The notes beneath the pieces were generated by a model, which was not told the DNA's origin, searched no databases, and saw only the letters and a program-made list of their open reading frames with translations. A program made the translations under genes and the position numbers. A DNA stretch of 64,000 nt from Arcobacter nitrofigilis DSM 7299 (GTDB lineage Bacteria; Campylobacterota; Campylobacteria; Campylobacterales; Arcobacteraceae): positions 1,550,001 through 1,614,000 of the forward strand of contig NC_014166.1 of the NCBI RefSeq assembly GCF_000092245.1, read 5' to 3'. Below are positions 46,603-61,833 of the stretch, in pieces; within the stretch, counting starts at the first letter, position 1, and every line of letters starts with the position of its first letter.

Positions 46603-49260
46603 ATGAAAAAACTATTAGGAAATATCTCTTTAAAAGCAAAACTACAAATACTAACTTTTCTTCCCTTATTAGCACTCCTTTATTTTATAAGCAATACCTT
46701 CATAAGTTCATATAAAAAAGTTAAAGAAATGGATGAATTAGTCCAAATGGTCGAACTTGTGAAAATAAATACTACTTTATTAAAAGACCAATCAAAAGAA
46801 AGAAATATCACAGCAAATTTTATTAACTCTCAAGGTGCGAAATATGCAGATGAACTAAAAAATATAAGAAAAGAAGTTGATGATAATTATTCATCATTAC
46901 TTCAAAAACTTATAACGAAAGATAAGATACCCAAAAGTTTAAAAATAAATTTAGAAAAAGATATTAAAACTATAAAAGAAACGTTAAGTAAAGTCAGAGA
47001 ACAAATAAGAAGTGATAATATTGAAAATGTTCGTACTATAAATGCTTTAAATTTTTATACATCGTTAAATACTCAATTATTAAAATTTTTATTAGAAATA
47101 TCTACTTATACGAATGAAGCTGTTATTTCAACTCAAATTATTTCTACATATAATTTATTATCTTCAAAAGATGACACCGAACTTATCAAATCTTATGGGT
47201 TAAATTTGATTTCTGAGTTAGACAATGAAAATGAAGATGAAGATGAAATGAAAAAAAACATTGTATATAATCAACTAAAAATAAAATCTTTATTAAACAC
47301 TGAAAATGAAAAATTTGAAGTATTCCATTCACTTGCATTAAATAACTATTCCAAATATGAAGATATTATCAAAAAAACTAAACTTGAAGATTACAAAGAT
47401 TTTATTAATACTTTATCAAGTGAAGAAGATGTAGATATTTTCTCAGGTGAAGAAGAGTCTTTTTCTAAACTTTCAAATAAAAAAATTGAAATGTTAAATA
47501 AAATAGAAAATAGTGTAATTAACAATTTGGATAATATTTTGATTGCACATGAAAAAAATGCTAGATTATCACTTTATAAAGATACTGCAATTGGTTGTTT
47601 TATTCTTATTCTTAGTCTTCTTTTAGCATTTATTATTTATAAAAAAATTGATTCTGATATGAAACTTTTAAAGAATAATTTATTAGATTTTTTCGATTTT
47701 GTTGCTAAGAAAAAAGATGATATACAAATTAGTAATGTAGAGGGTAAAGATGAATTTGCACTTTTAATAAATACTATAAATGAAGAAGTACATAAGACAA
47801 AAGAAATAGCTTCTAAGGATAATGAAGTTTTAAAAGAAATTGATGATGTAATTAGTCGTGTTGAAAATGGATTTTTTACTTATAATGTAAAATCACAAGC
47901 AGGAAGTGATTCTGTAAATACACTAAAAATTAGTGTAAATAGTATGATAAATATTACAAAAGAAAAACTTGATACTCTTGGTTTAATATTAAAAGCTTAT
48001 GGAGAATATAAATATGACTTTAAGTTAAATGAAGAACAAAAAAGAGGAATCGCAGGAAATATTGGAACTCTAAGCAGTTCTTTATTGGCATTAGGAAATG
48101 ATATTTCAAGCTTTATGGCTACCTTTAGTAATGTAATTGATAAGTTAAATAATAACACTCATATCTTAGCATCTACGTCAGCTACAATTTCACAATCTTC
48201 AAATAATCAAGCAGCTTCATTGGAAGAAACAGCAGCCTCTCTTGATGAAATTACTTCAAATATTCAAATGAATGCTGAAAATATTATTCAAATGTCTCAA
48301 CTTTCTGATAAGCTAAATGATACAGCTTCAAAGGGTAATACTTTAGCTAAAAATACATCCAATGCAATGGAAGAAATAAATACTAAAATTAATCAAATAA
48401 ATGAATCTATTACTATTATTGATCAAATAGCATTTCAAACAAATATTTTATCACTAAATGCAGCTGTTGAAGCAGCGACTGCTGGAGAAGCAGGGAAAGG
48501 TTTTGCAGTTGTTGCAGGGGAAGTTAGAAATCTAGCTTCTAGATCTGCTGAAGCAGCACATGAAATTAAATCACTAGTTGAAGAGGCTACACAAAAAGCA
48601 AATGAAGGTAAAAGTGTTTCGAATACAATGATTGAAGGATACAATGATTTAGATAATAAAATTAAAGAGACTAAACATATAATTGATGAAGTTGCAAGTA
48701 CATCAGAAGAACAAAAAAGTAGAATACTACAAATAAATGCTGCCATTTCAAACTTAGATAAAATGACTCAAGAAAATGCTTCAAGTGTAAGTAACTTATC
48801 TAAAATTTCTCATGAAGTAGAGGATTTATCTCTTCAAATTGAAGATACAATTAAAAAAGCACAATTTGATGAAAGTTATAAAGATATGGTTTGTGATGCA
48901 AATCTAGTAAATGCTGTCTCTAAACACAAAAGAAAACATATTGAATATAAAGATAAACATTTCCAAAAATTAAATGATTTTACAAACTTTAGTATAATCA
49001 ACACAAAAGAGTGTGAATTGGGTGTATGGATTGAGAATGAAGAGAAAAATGATTCACCATTTACAAAAACTGAACAATGGACACAATTAAAAAAACAACA
49101 TGAAATTGTACATACTAATATTCAGGAATATATTACTTTGAACTCAGAAAATACTCCACAAAATAAGTTAGAAAATAGAGCAATAGAGATAGAAGAAAAT
49201 ACATTATTGATATTTGAAAAATTAAATGATGTATTAAAAAATAATTGCAAAAATAAATAA
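46603..49260 (+). CDS. methyl-accepting chemotaxis protein with NIT sensor and CZB domain
   Basis: An 885-residue chemoreceptor. TM1 spans about 13-32, then a helical periplasmic NIT-like domain (about 50-320, with [20 protein letters not shown] near its start), TM2 about 330-350, and HAMP-like repeats. The signalling hairpin tip is [19 protein letters not shown], with [12 protein letters not shown]. The C-terminal CZB domain has conserved His residues and [12 protein letters not shown] domains bind zinc and sense oxidants such as hypochlorous acid (known in Helicobacter TlpD). NIT domains often respond to nitrate or nitrite, so two signals may be combined. It lies right after the redox-detoxification operon but has its own promoter. 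Confidence 0.9.
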
Positions 49261-55406: not shown

Positions 55407-58400
55407 ATGAAGAATGACCCATACAATATAATTGAAAATTTAAATAATTCATCAAATTCAGATTCAGAATTTTTTTTAGCCTATGATAAAAACCATAAAA
55501 AAGTATTACTGAAAAGAATTAAAAATGATTTTCTTGTAAATAATAATAAATTATATAATGAATATTCAATTCTGAATATTTGTAAACATGAAAATATTAT
55601 TGCTGCAAAAGCCATAGAAAAAATCGAAAATAAGATATATTTGGTAAGAGAATATTTTGATGGAATTTCTTTAACTAATTTTATAAAAAAAAATAATAAC
55701 TTATCATTAGATGAGTTTTTTTATGTTTCATTATCTTTATGTAAAGCAATTTATACTTTGCATAACAAAAAAATTGTACATGGAAATATTACTCCTGATA
55801 ATATATTAATAGATAAAAATCATCTGGTAAAATTAATTGGTTTTGGTTTTGCTTCAACAATAATTGAAAATAATACTACTAATAGTATTTATCAGTCTCC
55901 AGAACAAACGGGAAGAATTAATAAAAGTATAAATAATAGTACAGATATTTATAGTTTGGGAATGGTATTTTATTTTTTACTATCTAATAACTCATTAGAT
56001 GAATCTGCAGATGATTCTCATTTAACATATACTATAATTACAAAAAAAATAAAAAGTTTACACGCAGTTAACCCTAATATTCCTCTAATAATCTCTAATA
56101 TAATTGATAAAATGATAGATAAAGATCAAAAAATACGTTATAGCAATATATGTTCTGTAATATCAGATTTTCAAAAAGCTATTAAAAGTAACTTTTATGA
56201 ATTTAAGTTAGATAGTATGAGAAATATTTTGGAGTTAAATTACTTAAATAATTTATTTGGGAGAGAAAAAGAAATTGAATTATTTAATAATTATTATTCT
56301 CAATTAAAAAATAATAATATATCTTTTGTTTCTATATCAGGTGATTCGGGTATAGGAAAGTCTACTTTTCTAGATTTTTTCCTTGAAAAAAATAAAATAA
56401 AATTTAGTTATATTCTAAAGATTAAACTAGAAGAATTTAAACAAAATAATTCTTATGAAATTTTATATATGGCATTAAGAAACTTAACTAAACAGATTAT
56501 TATAAATGATAAAGAGAAATTAAAAACATGGAAAATAAAAATTGAAGAAGAATTAAAAGAAAAAGCGATTTTTTTATTTTCAATTATTCCTGAATTGGAG
56601 TATATTCTTGGTGAACAAAAAGGTGATAATATTACTTCAGATGTTGATTATAAAACACAACTTGATGCAGTTTTAATTCGTTACTTACAACTATTTGCCA
56701 AGGAGAATAAACCTCTTTGTATATGTTTTGATGATGTACAATGGATAGACCATGTTACTTTAAAGTGGATTGAACATGTAACAATAAATTTAAAGAATAT
56801 ATTTATTGTTACGACACATAGGGAAAAAGAGGTAAATAAAAATCACTCATTTTATATTTTATTAAAAAAATTAAATTCAATGGGAATAACTATTAATTCA
56901 TTAAAGATTGAACCATTAAATCAAAAATCAATAAAAGATTTTATTTCATCATCAATTGAAATCGACAAAATCGATGATATCAGTAGAATTATTTTTAATA
57001 AAACCAGAGGTAATTTTTTATTTGTAAAACAATATATTAAAGAATTATTAGATAAAGATGGAATTTATTTTGATTTGAATGAATTAAAATGGTTATCAAA
57101 TTTGGAAAAAATTAACAATATGCCTATTAGTGATAACGTATTTGATATTTTATCTAGTCAAATAGAATTGTTTTCAAATGATGTAAAGTATTTATTAAAG
57201 ATTGCTTCTTGCATAGGTAATGAATTCTCAAAAGAGCTTTTAAATAAAATATATGATGATACATTAACTTTTGAATCAGCATTGAGTCTTGCTATTCAAA
57301 AAGAGTGGCTTATAATATCTAAAAAAATAAATAATAAGATAGATGTAACTTGTCAATTTTCCCATGATAGGATGAAAGAAGTTATTTATACTTCACTACA
57401 AAAAGAAGAAAAATCAAAAATTCATTTAAATATTGCAAGAACTTTATATACTATTTTGAATAATGATAATTTGATTTTATGTGTAAACAATTTTAATTTG
57501 GCTTTATTGGAAATTAATGAAAAAGAAAAAACTGATCTTATTAATTTAAATATAGAATCATCACTTTATTCAAAAAGGAATGGTGACTTTGATAATGCTC
57601 TTCATTATATAAAAAATGCAATGAACATTAGTCCTTTGGAAAAACAAGATAATTATGTTGATTTATTAAAATTAAGAGCTGAATGTGAACATTTATGTCA
57701 CAATAATAAAAATGCAATAAAATATTATAATTTAGCATTAGATAATGCTAAAACAAAAAAGCAAAAAGGTTTAATTTATGAGTTAATAATCAAGTTTTAT
57801 ACAGATACAACTCAATTTAATGAAGCATATGAGGTAGGGCGAAAAGCTACTGAATTATTTGATATAAGATTACCAAAAAAATTTAATATAATATTATTTA
57901 TAAATTCATTTATTACTTTAAAATACAAATTAAAATCATTTCAAATTAATGATATATTAGAGATAAAAGAATCAAGTGATGATAATGTAATATTACTTAT
58001 TCGTATTTTATCTGCATTATTAAAAGTTTCATACCAAATTAAACCAGAACTATGTGTTTTAATTTCAATGAAATTAATCAAACTATGTTTAGAAAAGGGA
58101 ATAACTTCTGAATCAGTTGTTGGATTTATGGTTTTTGGTGTTATTTTTCAAGGAGCAGTATTATCCAATCATGATATATCATATAACTATTCTAATTTAT
58201 GTTTTAAAATGTTGGAAAAATTTGATAATAAAATTCAACATTCTGAAGTTCAATTTGTTTGTGGATATTTTGCTATATTCTGGAAACATTCTTCTTCTCA
58301 CACTGAAACTTTATGGCAAAAAGCATATGACAATGGCTTAGAGGTTGGAGATTGGTTTCATAGTGCTTGTGCAGCTGCAGGGATTATTCAAAGCATGTTT

Positions 58401-60347
58401 ATGAGAGGAGTATGCTTAAAAACTATTTTAGAAAAAATTGATTATTTTGAAGTTATGCTTAAAAGTATTGGAAGTACAGAACAATTAGGTGCAATTTTGA
58501 GTGTCAAGCAAGCAATATTAAATTTGGAAGAAAAAACAATTTCACCTACCTCTTTTTCTAACAGTACCTTTGATGAAGAAACCTATATTGATAATTTAAA
58601 AAATTATAAATCTCCTCATTTTGCTCTTTTTTATTTTCTTAATAAGATTATTACTCTTTATTTTAATGAAAAGTATGAGAAAGCATTAGAAGTTTATAAT
58701 GAAGGGGAAAAATATACTCATTCTGCAAAAGGAATGTTGCACAATACTGAGTATATGTTTTACAAAGCACTAATTTATTCTAAATTGATTAAAAATGTAA
58801 AAAGAACAAAAAAATTTTTATTCTTAAATAAGATAGTCTCAATAAAAAATAAATTTAAATTTTGGTCAAATTCTTCTCCTGAAAATTTTTTAGGAAGATC
58901 AAAAATTTTAGAAGCTGAAATATATCGTATAAAAAATAAGTTTGATTTATCAATAAGTTGTTTTGAAGAAGCATTAGAAATAACAACAATCTATGGACAA
59001 AATAATCTTCAGGTAATTATTAATAAGAGTATAAGTGAAATGTACAAAGAAAAACTGCAAAAGAAAGTTTTTTTATTGTATGAAAGAGATGCAAATAAAA
59101 GCCTAAATAAGTGGATTTATAATGATAATGAAAACACTCAAAGTGAGAATATATTTGATTTAGATATTTTAACTAAATCAACAGAAGTTATTACAAAAGA
59201 GAGAGATTTATCAAAACTTTTAGTAAAGTTAATAAAGTTAATAATAGAGAATGTAAATGCAGAACATGGTTGTCTTCTTTTAAAAAGTGGAAATGAATTT
59301 TTAATACAATCACAATCTATCAATAACAATGAAGAAGTTGTTGTTTTACAAAATCAAAAATATGCTGAATCAGACTATGTGGTTACATCTGTAATTAATT
59401 ATGTCATAAATTCTGGAGAAACTTTAGTTTTAGAGGATCTTAAAAAAAATATTATTTTCAAAGAAGAAACTGATATTTTAAATAGAGAAGTTAAATCAGT
59501 GTTTTGTGCACCATTGAAATTATCTGGTGAATTAAAAGGGATTATATATTTAGAAAATAATTTGATATCTGGAGTTTTTACATATGATAAAATAGAATTA
59601 TTAAAGCACCTAAGTGGCCAAATTGCAATTTCAATTGAGAATGCACAAATATACAATAAGCTAGAAGAGAAAGTTGAAGAAAGAACCTTTGAACTAGATA
59701 GTAAAAATGAAATATTGGAAAAACAAAATAATGTATTTAAAGAACAAAATACTAAAATTTTACAATTAAATAAAGAGGTTTTACAAGAAAATGAAGAAAG
59801 AAAGAAAGTTGAATTAAAATTACAAGAGGCAATTGAAAAACTTGATTTACTTTCAAGAACTGATTCTTTGACATCTATTAATAATCGAAGGGCCTTTGAT
59901 GAATGTTTAGAAAAAAATTTCGAACAAGCAAAACGAGATAAAAAACCAATAAGTTTAATGATATGTGATGTTGATTTTTTTAAAAAATATAATGATTTTT
60001 ATGGTCATCAAAAAGGAGATGATTGCTTAATCAAAGTTGCCCAGACTCTAAAAGAATCTCTAAAAAGACCTAATGATTCTGTTTCTCGATACGGTGGGGA
60101 AGAATTTGCTATTATATTACCAGATACTAATAAAATTGGTGCAATAAAAATTGCAAATGAAATACATAATAATTTAAATAAAAGTAAAATTATTCATGAA
60201 AAATCTGAAGTCTCAAAATATCTTACTATAAGTATAGGTGTTTCAACAATTGAAAAATTCAATACTTATGACACCAAACAATTAATTAATTCTGCAGATA
60301 AAGCTTTATATGATGCCAAAAAGTCAGGAAGAAACCAGACAAAATAA
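55407..60347 (+). CDS. pseudokinase - AAA ATPase - TPR-like - GAF - diguanylate cyclase protein
   Basis: A 1646-residue signalling protein without membrane segments. Residues 15-260 have a protein-kinase fold: K36 in VLLKRI and DIYSLGMVFYF remain, but the catalytic loop is HGNITPDN (HRD Asp replaced by N127, catalytic-loop Lys by T129) and DFG is GFG (145-147), so catalysis looks lost. Residues 275-600 form an AAA_16/PknK-type ATPase with Walker A GDSGIGKST (312-320) and Walker B LCICFDDVQWID. A helical TPR-like region (about 690-1250) leads to a GAF domain (about 1280-1420) and a coiled coil. The C-terminal cyclase has GGEEF (1563-1567) with an RPND inhibition site five residues upstream, so it should make c-di-GMP under feedback control. 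Confidence 0.85.
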   Translation: MKNDPYNIIENLNNSSNSDSEFFLAYDKNHKKVLLKRIKNDFLVNNNKLYNEYSILNICKHENIIAAKAIEKIENKIYLVREYFDGISLTNFIKKNNNLSLDEFFYVSLSLCKAIYTLHNKKIVHGNITPDNILIDKNHLVKLIGFGFASTIIENNTTNSIYQSPEQTGRINKSINNSTDIYSLGMVFYFLLSNNSLDESADDSHLTYTIITKKIKSLHAVNPNIPLIISNIIDKMIDKDQKIRYSNICSVISDFQKAIKSNFYEFKLDSMRNILELNYLNNLFGREKEIELFNNYYSQLKNNNISFVSISGDSGIGKSTFLDFFLEKNKIKFSYILKIKLEEFKQNNSYEILYMALRNLTKQIIINDKEKLKTWKIKIEEELKEKAIFLFSIIPELEYILGEQKGDNITSDVDYKTQLDAVLIRYLQLFAKENKPLCICFDDVQWIDHVTLKWIEHVTINLKNIFIVTTHREKEVNKNHSFYILLKKLNSMGITINSLKIEPLNQKSIKDFISSSIEIDKIDDISRIIFNKTRGNFLFVKQYIKELLDKDGIYFDLNELKWLSNLEKINNMPISDNVFDILSSQIELFSNDVKYLLKIASCIGNEFSKELLNKIYDDTLTFESALSLAIQKEWLIISKKINNKIDVTCQFSHDRMKEVIYTSLQKEEKSKIHLNIARTLYTILNNDNLILCVNNFNLALLEINEKEKTDLINLNIESSLYSKRNGDFDNALHYIKNAMNISPLEKQDNYVDLLKLRAECEHLCHNNKNAIKYYNLALDNAKTKKQKGLIYELIIKFYTDTTQFNEAYEVGRKATELFDIRLPKKFNIILFINSFITLKYKLKSFQINDILEIKESSDDNVILLIRILSALLKVSYQIKPELCVLISMKLIKLCLEKGITSESVVGFMVFGVIFQGAVLSNHDISYNYSNLCFKMLEKFDNKIQHSEVQFVCGYFAIFWKHSSSHTETLWQKAYDNGLEVGDWFHSACAAAGIIQSMFMRGVCLKTILEKIDYFEVMLKSIGSTEQLGAILSVKQAILNLEEKTISPTSFSNSTFDEETYIDNLKNYKSPHFALFYFLNKIITLYFNEKYEKALEVYNEGEKYTHSAKGMLHNTEYMFYKALIYSKLIKNVKRTKKFLFLNKIVSIKNKFKFWSNSSPENFLGRSKILEAEIYRIKNKFDLSISCFEEALEITTIYGQNNLQVIINKSISEMYKEKLQKKVFLLYERDANKSLNKWIYNDNENTQSENIFDLDILTKSTEVITKERDLSKLLVKLIKLIIENVNAEHGCLLLKSGNEFLIQSQSINNNEEVVVLQNQKYAESDYVVTSVINYVINSGETLVLEDLKKNIIFKEETDILNREVKSVFCAPLKLSGELKGIIYLENNLISGVFTYDKIELLKHLSGQIAISIENAQIYNKLEEKVEERTFELDSKNEILEKQNNVFKEQNTKILQLNKEVLQENEERKKVELKLQEAIEKLDLLSRTDSLTSINNRRAFDECLEKNFEQAKRDKKPISLMICDVDFFKKYNDFYGHQKGDDCLIKVAQTLKESLKRPNDSVSRYGGEEFAIILPDTNKIGAIKIANEIHNNLNKSKIIHEKSEVSKYLTISIGVSTIEKFNTYDTKQLINSADKALYDAKKSGRNQTK

Positions 60348-60444: not shown

Positions 60445-61833
60445 ATGTATAAAAAATTGCACTTACTTAGTAAAGTATGTATATTAGTTAGTTTGCCCTT
60501 GATTCTTAATGCAAGTAACATTAATCCATTTGCTGTAAACAATGGAGAAATCCCTACTAAAATGCAATATGATGGACCATTATGGAAATTTAAATATAAT
60601 TATCCAACTACTTATGTAAATCCTTCTATGCCATGGAGAGATGTTCTTAAGGGTAAACCTTTGTCTAAAGATAATGCTTATAATTATATTATGACTTTAA
60701 AAAAATATATTTCACCCTCTATAAAAAATCTTATATTAGATCCCAAAAAGTGGAATACAAGTTCTCAAAAGGGATGGTATAGTATGCTTTGGGCAGGACA
60801 AGAAGTTAAGATAAAAGTAGGTGATAAAGAGGAAAATATTTGGGATGGAAGAGACTCAATTTATGGAACTTATACTGGTCAAGTTATAAATAAGAGCGTT
60901 TATGCAAAGTCTGGATTAAAAGTAGATATTCAAAATCATGCTACAATTTATTATAATGAAGCAGCTGCTTATACTTTACATAATGTTTGGAAGAATTGTG
61001 ATGAAAAGACAAAGAAATGTATTCCTAGTATAAGTAATAATGAAGCACAATTTAAAGAGGGGGCTATTGTTATTAAAGCAGCAGGAGTAAATGCTTCACC
61101 TGAAGAGTGGCCAGTTTTAGAAGGCGCTGCGAAATGGCAAATTTTTAGAAAACCATTTAATGATAAAAATGCAAAACCTAAAGTTATAGATTTAAGAGTT
61201 GGTATTTTTGATATTATTGTAAAAGATAGTATTGCTTCACCAAAAACAGGATGGGTTTTTACTACTTTAGTATATGATAAAGATGCAAAAGGAAATGCCT
61301 GGGATAAGATGATTCCTTTAGGTGCAATGTGGGGAAATGACCCTGCTATTAATTCAGAAAAAGAACCATTATCGCCATTAATAGAGACATACATTAATCC
61401 TCTTGCACCTGCTTATTCAACAGTTACTTTAGGTTATGGAAATAGATTATCTGGACCCTTTGATATTGCAGTAAAATATAATGTAGAAATAGATGGTAAA
61501 AAAGTTAAAGAACTTAGAAGTTCATCATGTTTAAGCTGCCATGGAACATCTGTATATCCAGGTGATTTAACATTTTTTTATCCAGCTAAAGATCCTAATC
61601 AGAATCCTTGGGAAATGTATACTCCAGGTTCAAAAGAATGGAATGAGTGGTTTCAAAATAGAAATGGTACAACTCCTCAAAGTAACAAAAAAGGTGCTAT
61701 AGCATTAGATTATAGTACTTTTTTGGAGGCTGTTTTGATGAATTATGCTTCAACACTAGATACTAACAAAAATTCAAATAGTAATATGTTTGTAAAATGG
61801 AAAAAATATAGACAATTAAGACAAAATTATTAA
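60445..61833 (+). CDS. secreted protein with one CxxCH haem-binding motif
   Basis: A 462-residue exported protein of a family I cannot name. A signal peptide spans about 1-23 (ending LNAS). Most of the chain is a beta-rich domain with WDGRDSIYGTYTGQ and AAGVNASPEEWPVLEGAAKW. A single haem c site CLSCH lies at 362-366, with aromatic residues after it. It resembles hypothetical c-type cytochromes of environmental proteobacteria. AAGGAG precedes the ATG. It follows the diguanylate cyclase gene by 97 bases and may have its own promoter. It ends at a shared terminator. Confidence 0.75.
   Translation: MYKKLHLLSKVCILVSLPLILNASNINPFAVNNGEIPTKMQYDGPLWKFKYNYPTTYVNPSMPWRDVLKGKPLSKDNAYNYIMTLKKYISPSIKNLILDPKKWNTSSQKGWYSMLWAGQEVKIKVGDKEENIWDGRDSIYGTYTGQVINKSVYAKSGLKVDIQNHATIYYNEAAAYTLHNVWKNCDEKTKKCIPSISNNEAQFKEGAIVIKAAGVNASPEEWPVLEGAAKWQIFRKPFNDKNAKPKVIDLRVGIFDIIVKDSIASPKTGWVFTTLVYDKDAKGNAWDKMIPLGAMWGNDPAINSEKEPLSPLIETYINPLAPAYSTVTLGYGNRLSGPFDIAVKYNVEIDGKKVKELRSSSCLSCHGTSVYPGDLTFFYPAKDPNQNPWEMYTPGSKEWNEWFQNRNGTTPQSNKKGAIALDYSTFLEAVLMNYASTLDTNKNSNSNMFVKWKKYRQLRQNY

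Follow-up and report, generated by a model that had tools for sequence, protein, structure and literature searches.

What does a kinase domain stripped of its catalytic residues contribute to a protein that also carries an ATPase and a predicted c-di-GMP synthase domain? The question is raised by a 1646-residue fusion protein encoded in a 64,000-nucleotide stretch of Arcobacter nitrofigilis DSM 7299 (NC_014166.1, positions 1,550,001 to 1,614,000; hereinafter the window), for which an earlier note, made from the sequence alone, proposed a pseudokinase acting as a ligand or protein sensor that controls c-di-GMP output through a STAND-like ATPase.

Domain organization of the fusion protein

The protein displays the order pseudokinase, AAA_16 (STAND-like) ATPase, TPR-like region, GAF, coiled coil and GGDEF (Table 1). 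Pfam searches recovered the Pkinase domain at residues 25–246 (E=1.2e-29), AAA_16 at residues 283–457 (E=4.4e-19), GAF (E=6.3e-10) and GGDEF (E=1.1e-51), with weak TPR matches between AAA_16 and GAF. A simple hydropathy scan, as opposed to a topology predictor, detected no clear transmembrane segment, the top 19-residue value (1.66) falling within the repeat region. The P-loop and Walker B motifs are intact in every relative of our motif table (see below) that covers the AAA_16 region. At the C-terminus, the fusion carries both sequence hallmarks of diguanylate cyclases, namely a GG[DE]EF A-site and an RxxD I-site, the latter likewise present in the homologues L104, L105, L108 and L188; consistent with the earlier description of both sites as intact, this part is apparently an intact c-di-GMP synthase. 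It is the top-scoring of the 38 GGDEF matches of the genome (Pfam), and a scan of the genome contigs was swamped by GGDEF domains.

Table 1. Coordinates of the fusion protein, its domains and motifs, and the adjacent haem protein, in window positions.
Feature	Position	Strand	Basis or remark
Fusion protein, 1646 aa, ATG start	55407..60347	+	ORF and translation
Kinase N-lobe, residues 1–84	55407..55658	+	Translation; model with kinase fold
Kinase C-lobe, residues 85–262	55659..56192	+	Retained in all close relatives
Catalytic loop HGNITPDN, degenerate (HGN for HRD, Thr for Lys)	55779..55802	+	Alignment to solved kinase
Degenerate DFG motif, GFG	55839..55847	+	Alignment to solved kinase
AAA_16 ATPase	56253..56777	+	Pfam and translation
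P-loop of AAA_16, GDSGIGKST	56340-56366	+	Translation
Walker B of AAA_16, CICFDDVQW	56718-56744	+	Translation
Winged-helix/TPR-like repeat region, residues 458–1250	56778..59156	+	Weak TPR matches; family alignment
GAF domain, residues 1267–1410	59205..59636	+	Pfam
GGDEF domain, residues 1485–1644	59859..60338	+	Pfam and translation
RxxD product-inhibition site (I-site), RPND, five residues ahead of GGEEF	60066..60077	+	Read from sequence
GGEEF motif of cyclase	60093-60107	+	Read from sequence
Exported monohaem protein, 462 aa	60445..61833	+	97 bp downstream of fusion
Single CxxCH of haem protein, CLSCH	61528-61542	+	Read from sequence

With residues 1–280 as query, the top solved-structure match was Staphylococcus aureus PknB (4eqm, E=1.7e-22). 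The structure prediction that the earlier note had suggested for the kinase region, performed here with AlphaFold2 on residues 1–540 (alignment of seven sequences; mean pLDDT 75), likewise yielded a kinase fold with bacterial PknB kinases as the nearest structures, the activation segment being poorly modelled. The alignment to 4eqm places HGN at the HRD position, Thr at the catalytic-loop Lys and GFG at the DFG position, which bears out the loss of the HRD Asp, the catalytic-loop Lys and the DFG Asp noticed earlier; loss of the Lys taken by itself is of no diagnostic value, as Asn occupies that position in many relatives whose HRD and DFG Asp are intact. In the N-lobe, the glycine loop is devoid of glycines, and the β3 Lys (K36) and αC Glu (E52) are retained, such that this copy may still bind some nucleotide. 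PADLOC matches to the defence systems MADS6 and PD-T4-6 were set aside as generic matches spanning the kinase domain only.

Two further proteins of this organism were recovered alongside. One is a 582-aa PP2C-phosphatase/kinase fusion (L101:1390-3135; kinase match at C1:384231-385028), which has intact catalytic Asp and Asn residues (in HQDIRPEN) as well as an intact DFG Asp and is a candidate active Ser/Thr kinase. The other, encoded in the window at 46603-49257, is an 885-aa methyl-accepting chemotaxis protein with nitrate/nitrite-sensing NIT and zinc-binding CZB domains.

Motif loss, lobe loss and output exchange among relatives

The sensor part of the fusion is present in 10 of 120 related genomes. 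Kinase motifs were tabulated for about 60 relatives (Campylobacterota, Gammaproteobacteria, Cyanobacteria and Actinomycetota), with output domains assigned by simple motif. The commonest state in this table is HKD..(N/K)P.N with the DFG Asp retained, and both catalytic Asp residues persist in several relatives with a GGDEF output (L133, L136, L168, L177 and one from Actinoplanes). A quick tree computed from the ATPase-TPR part only, with long branches and a single clade relied on (SH-aLRT 100), groups the window protein in that clade of seven Campylobacterota genes, all of them degenerate; the protein is not the isolated mutant that would have undercut the earlier proposal. Over the wider family, the same tree calls for three to four separate changes as a minimum.

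The members of this clade lost their catalytic residues in differing ways: among the eight aligned, the HRD Asp is kept in one and the catalytic Asn in two, and the DFG region has been scrambled or lost. Judged by its sequence, the kinase domain is catalytically dead clade-wide. K36 and E52 are kept in all three members that possess an N-lobe, and the C-lobe retains an identical APE Pro-Glu, αF Asp/Tyr/Gly and Arg-Tyr in all eight, at an overall fusion identity of about 37–45%. Five relatives (L106, L107, L187, L188 and L189) lack the N-lobe altogether and start at the hinge. For four of these five short genes (L106, L107, L187 and L188), no N-lobe was found in other frames upstream, so that neither a frameshift nor a wrongly placed start explains its absence; for L106 and L107, moreover, the gene ahead of the fusion, which is the haem gene described below, ends about 27–37 bp upstream. 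The fifth gene, L189, is split over two contigs and stands outside both the tree and the upstream-frame check. The tree shows a single deletion of the N-lobe, in the lineage sister to that of the window protein, and the ATP-binding lobe is evidently dispensable in these close relatives.

The C-terminal output also differs among the close homologues, being GGDEF in L104, L105 and L108, and a hybrid histidine kinase in L106 and L107. An N-lobe-less member with a GGDEF domain (L188:5578-10158) is nested in the tree among the histidine-kinase members, which suggests that the output domain was probably swapped more than once in the clade. The C-lobe-only members and the swap between GGDEF and histidine-kinase outputs within one pseudokinase clade are new here. 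Separately, in a genome of the same order (G119), a relative is split between two frames that overlap and contain masked runs of N (L111:2743-5748 and 701-2791); its kinase part retains HKD and DFG.

The absence of the N-lobe from five relatives, together with the invariance of the C-lobe structural residues, carries the signature of a kinase domain presumably kept as a scaffold and not as an enzyme, with the AAA_16 ATPase remaining the nucleotide-driven switch. One could instead regard the domain as a functionless, decaying remnant in a protein of which the ATPase-GAF-GGDEF part alone matters, and catalytic losses that differ from member to member, along with the vanished N-lobes, would agree with that; however, a remnant would hardly keep its C-lobe residues invariant at such modest overall identity, and the C-lobe is present in every clade member found, so that we consider decay unlikely. 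It might also be supposed that the domain binds nucleotide via K36 and E52 and senses ATP/ADP, or performs a non-canonical transfer such as AMPylation. Persistence of both residues in the three members with an N-lobe would favor this, as would the report that some pseudokinases of the CP1 family may still bind ATP (PMC12599244), but with the glycine loop, the HRD Asp and the DFG Asp all gone, and with close relatives devoid of the N-lobe, we hold it to be very unlikely. The clade-wide catalytic loss is best read, in line with the earlier note, as a regulatory role without catalysis, exerted upstream of the ATPase and the GGDEF domain.

The adjacent haem protein

The earlier note missed a conserved neighbor of the fusion, a monohaem protein encoded immediately downstream (Table 1), which carries a single CxxCH and is predicted to be exported on the basis of its hydrophobic N-terminal stretch. 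The CxxCH motif is kept in all eight homologues aligned, and the protein is more conserved than the fusion (61–64% identity to its counterparts versus 37–45%). It was found in four of the 120 related genomes, its own included, and lies beside the fusion every time (hypergeometric P about 3e-4 without its own genome, a rough value since related genomes are not independent). The gene follows the fusion in the window, in L104 and in L108, and precedes it in L107; in L106 a matching C-terminal tail lies upstream of the fusion at the contig edge, and the gene is absent from the clade members L105, L187 and L188. In two genomes from another family of the same order, a conserved protein of about 107 aa (L187:1728-2051 and L190:2029-2349) occurs near the N-lobe-less fusion in place of the haem protein.

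Searches for the haem protein returned nothing in Desulfobacterota and only its own genome in the wider Campylobacterota. Remote homologues (33–39% identity) were recovered on plasmids: on each of the three Paracoccus plasmids, the gene that comes next codes for a class III cyclase-AAA_16 protein, with a Crp/Fnr regulator after it. That cyclase-AAA_16 protein has three strong matches among plasmids, all of them these same haem-linked loci. A gammaproteobacterial contig (L128) likewise pairs a haem homologue with an AAA_16-fused class III cyclase; no AAA_16-cyclase neighbor was found beside the haem homologues of Bradyrhizobium, Variovorax, Rhizobium and Massilia. Sequence searches linked the haem protein to no solved structure, and a single-sequence structure model (pLDDT 32) was left unused. 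The haem protein of the window has no Pfam match to cytochrome P460 (PF16694), the sole family matched by its homologues, at 20.0 and 24.2 bits (cut-off 27); it may be termed weakly cytochrome-P460-like. A secreted monohaem protein as a putative partner of a kinase-ATPase fusion is new here.

Whether the pairing is functional can be weighed from its distribution. The haem protein would be an unrelated passenger if the adjacency merely stemmed from common descent of two neutral neighboring genes, as the small number of genomes, the several clade members without the gene and the unlinked homologues in the four genera named above would allow. Yet the adjacency persists through a change in gene order and through output swaps, its hypergeometric P is low, albeit a rough value given the non-independence of the genomes, and the same kind of pairing recurs in Paracoccus and in a gammaproteobacterium, there with AAA_16-cyclases; we therefore regard a passenger as rather doubtful. 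Against a functional link, on the other hand, it counts that adjacency is the only evidence for it, that the fusion is without a membrane segment and that L105, L187 and L188 manage without the haem gene.

Relationship to known families and a proposed switch

A possible functional parallel is offered by receptor guanylyl cyclases, in which a dead kinase-homology domain regulates a nucleotide cyclase within one chain; unlike the fusion, they are membrane receptors of another architecture that produce cGMP. The earlier note compared the protein to PknK-type kinases and called it unusual. The architecture instead belongs to a large known family of kinase-COG3899/AAA_16-GAF-output proteins (PMC2176072, PMC12599244), and 'unusual' was too strong in view of the known cbSTKIII proteins, of CP1, a family already published for the pseudokinase version, and of a kinase-TPR-GGDEF fusion described in 2005. 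About 40% of CP1 kinases are pseudokinases, all of these being linked to COG3899 and free of transmembrane regions; like the fusion, they join the kinase to a COG3899 ATPase, often with GAF/FhlA or PAS domains (PMC12599244). The fusion fits CP1 by its kinase fold with degraded motifs, its COG3899 (AAA_16-type) link with near end-to-end homology to cyanobacterial family members, and its lack of a transmembrane region by hydropathy, an assignment made from domain features and motifs. The text of that review is silent on GGDEF outputs, Campylobacterota, N-lobe-less members and a haem partner (PMC12599244). The cbSTKIII 'dual kinases' are kinase-GAF-histidine kinase proteins of the KD type (HstK, Pkn40/41; PMC2176072), which share with the fusion the order kinase-(AAA/TPR)-GAF-output and about 25% identity almost end to end; they differ in keeping the catalytic Asp, where the fusion has HGN, and in ending in a histidine kinase, where the fusion has GGDEF after its GAF. 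An 1826-aa Clostridium thermocellum protein described in 2005 also joins a Ser/Thr kinase domain to TPR and GGDEF, but was listed as a kinase in a survey that excluded sequences lacking the catalytic Asp (PMC1262709). Fungal histidine kinases offer a further parallel: Chk1 has the kinase-AAA_16-GAF-output layout (PMC9069115), and Chk1, Mak2 and Mak3 combine a kinase-like domain and GAF with an output enzyme, deletion of kinase plus AAA altering signalling (PMC9069115, PMC5383687); unlike the fusion, these are eukaryotic and have a histidine-kinase output.

We think it probable that the protein is a soluble kinase-COG3899 (CP1/cbSTKIII) switch in which the pseudokinase C-lobe regulates the ATPase/GAF/GGDEF parts, with the haem protein as a partner. 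The C-lobe would serve the AAA_16 ATPase as a fixed regulatory surface, whether for protein-protein or for intramolecular contacts, and the real switch would be the STAND-like ATPase/TPR block, through its ATP/ADP state and oligomerization, along with the GAF domain. Upon activation, the coiled coil would bring GGDEF domains together for c-di-GMP synthesis, subject to predicted product inhibition at RPND; in the sister genes, the same module would drive a histidine kinase instead. The secreted, co-inherited haem protein would probably be a periplasmic partner in the same response, as an effector or part of the sensing chain, and may be tied to redox or nitrogen-oxide signals. More tentatively, and with the balance tilting against it, one might generalize to a hitherto undescribed two-gene module in which a soluble STAND-ATPase switch is paired with an exported monohaem protein. 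Such a switch would have as output either a histidine kinase or a second-messenger cyclase, be it for c-di-GMP or of the class III nucleotide type, and in Campylobacterota its regulatory domain would be a kinase that is dead or C-lobe-only.

The function of bacterial pseudokinases is a largely unexplored field. Here, one architecture holds a natural series from an active-looking kinase through a dead kinase to the C-lobe only, which makes it testable which part of the kinase fold serves as a non-catalytic regulator in bacteria. The haem pairing, if functional, hints at what the COG3899 switches, a widespread family, take as input or deliver as output.
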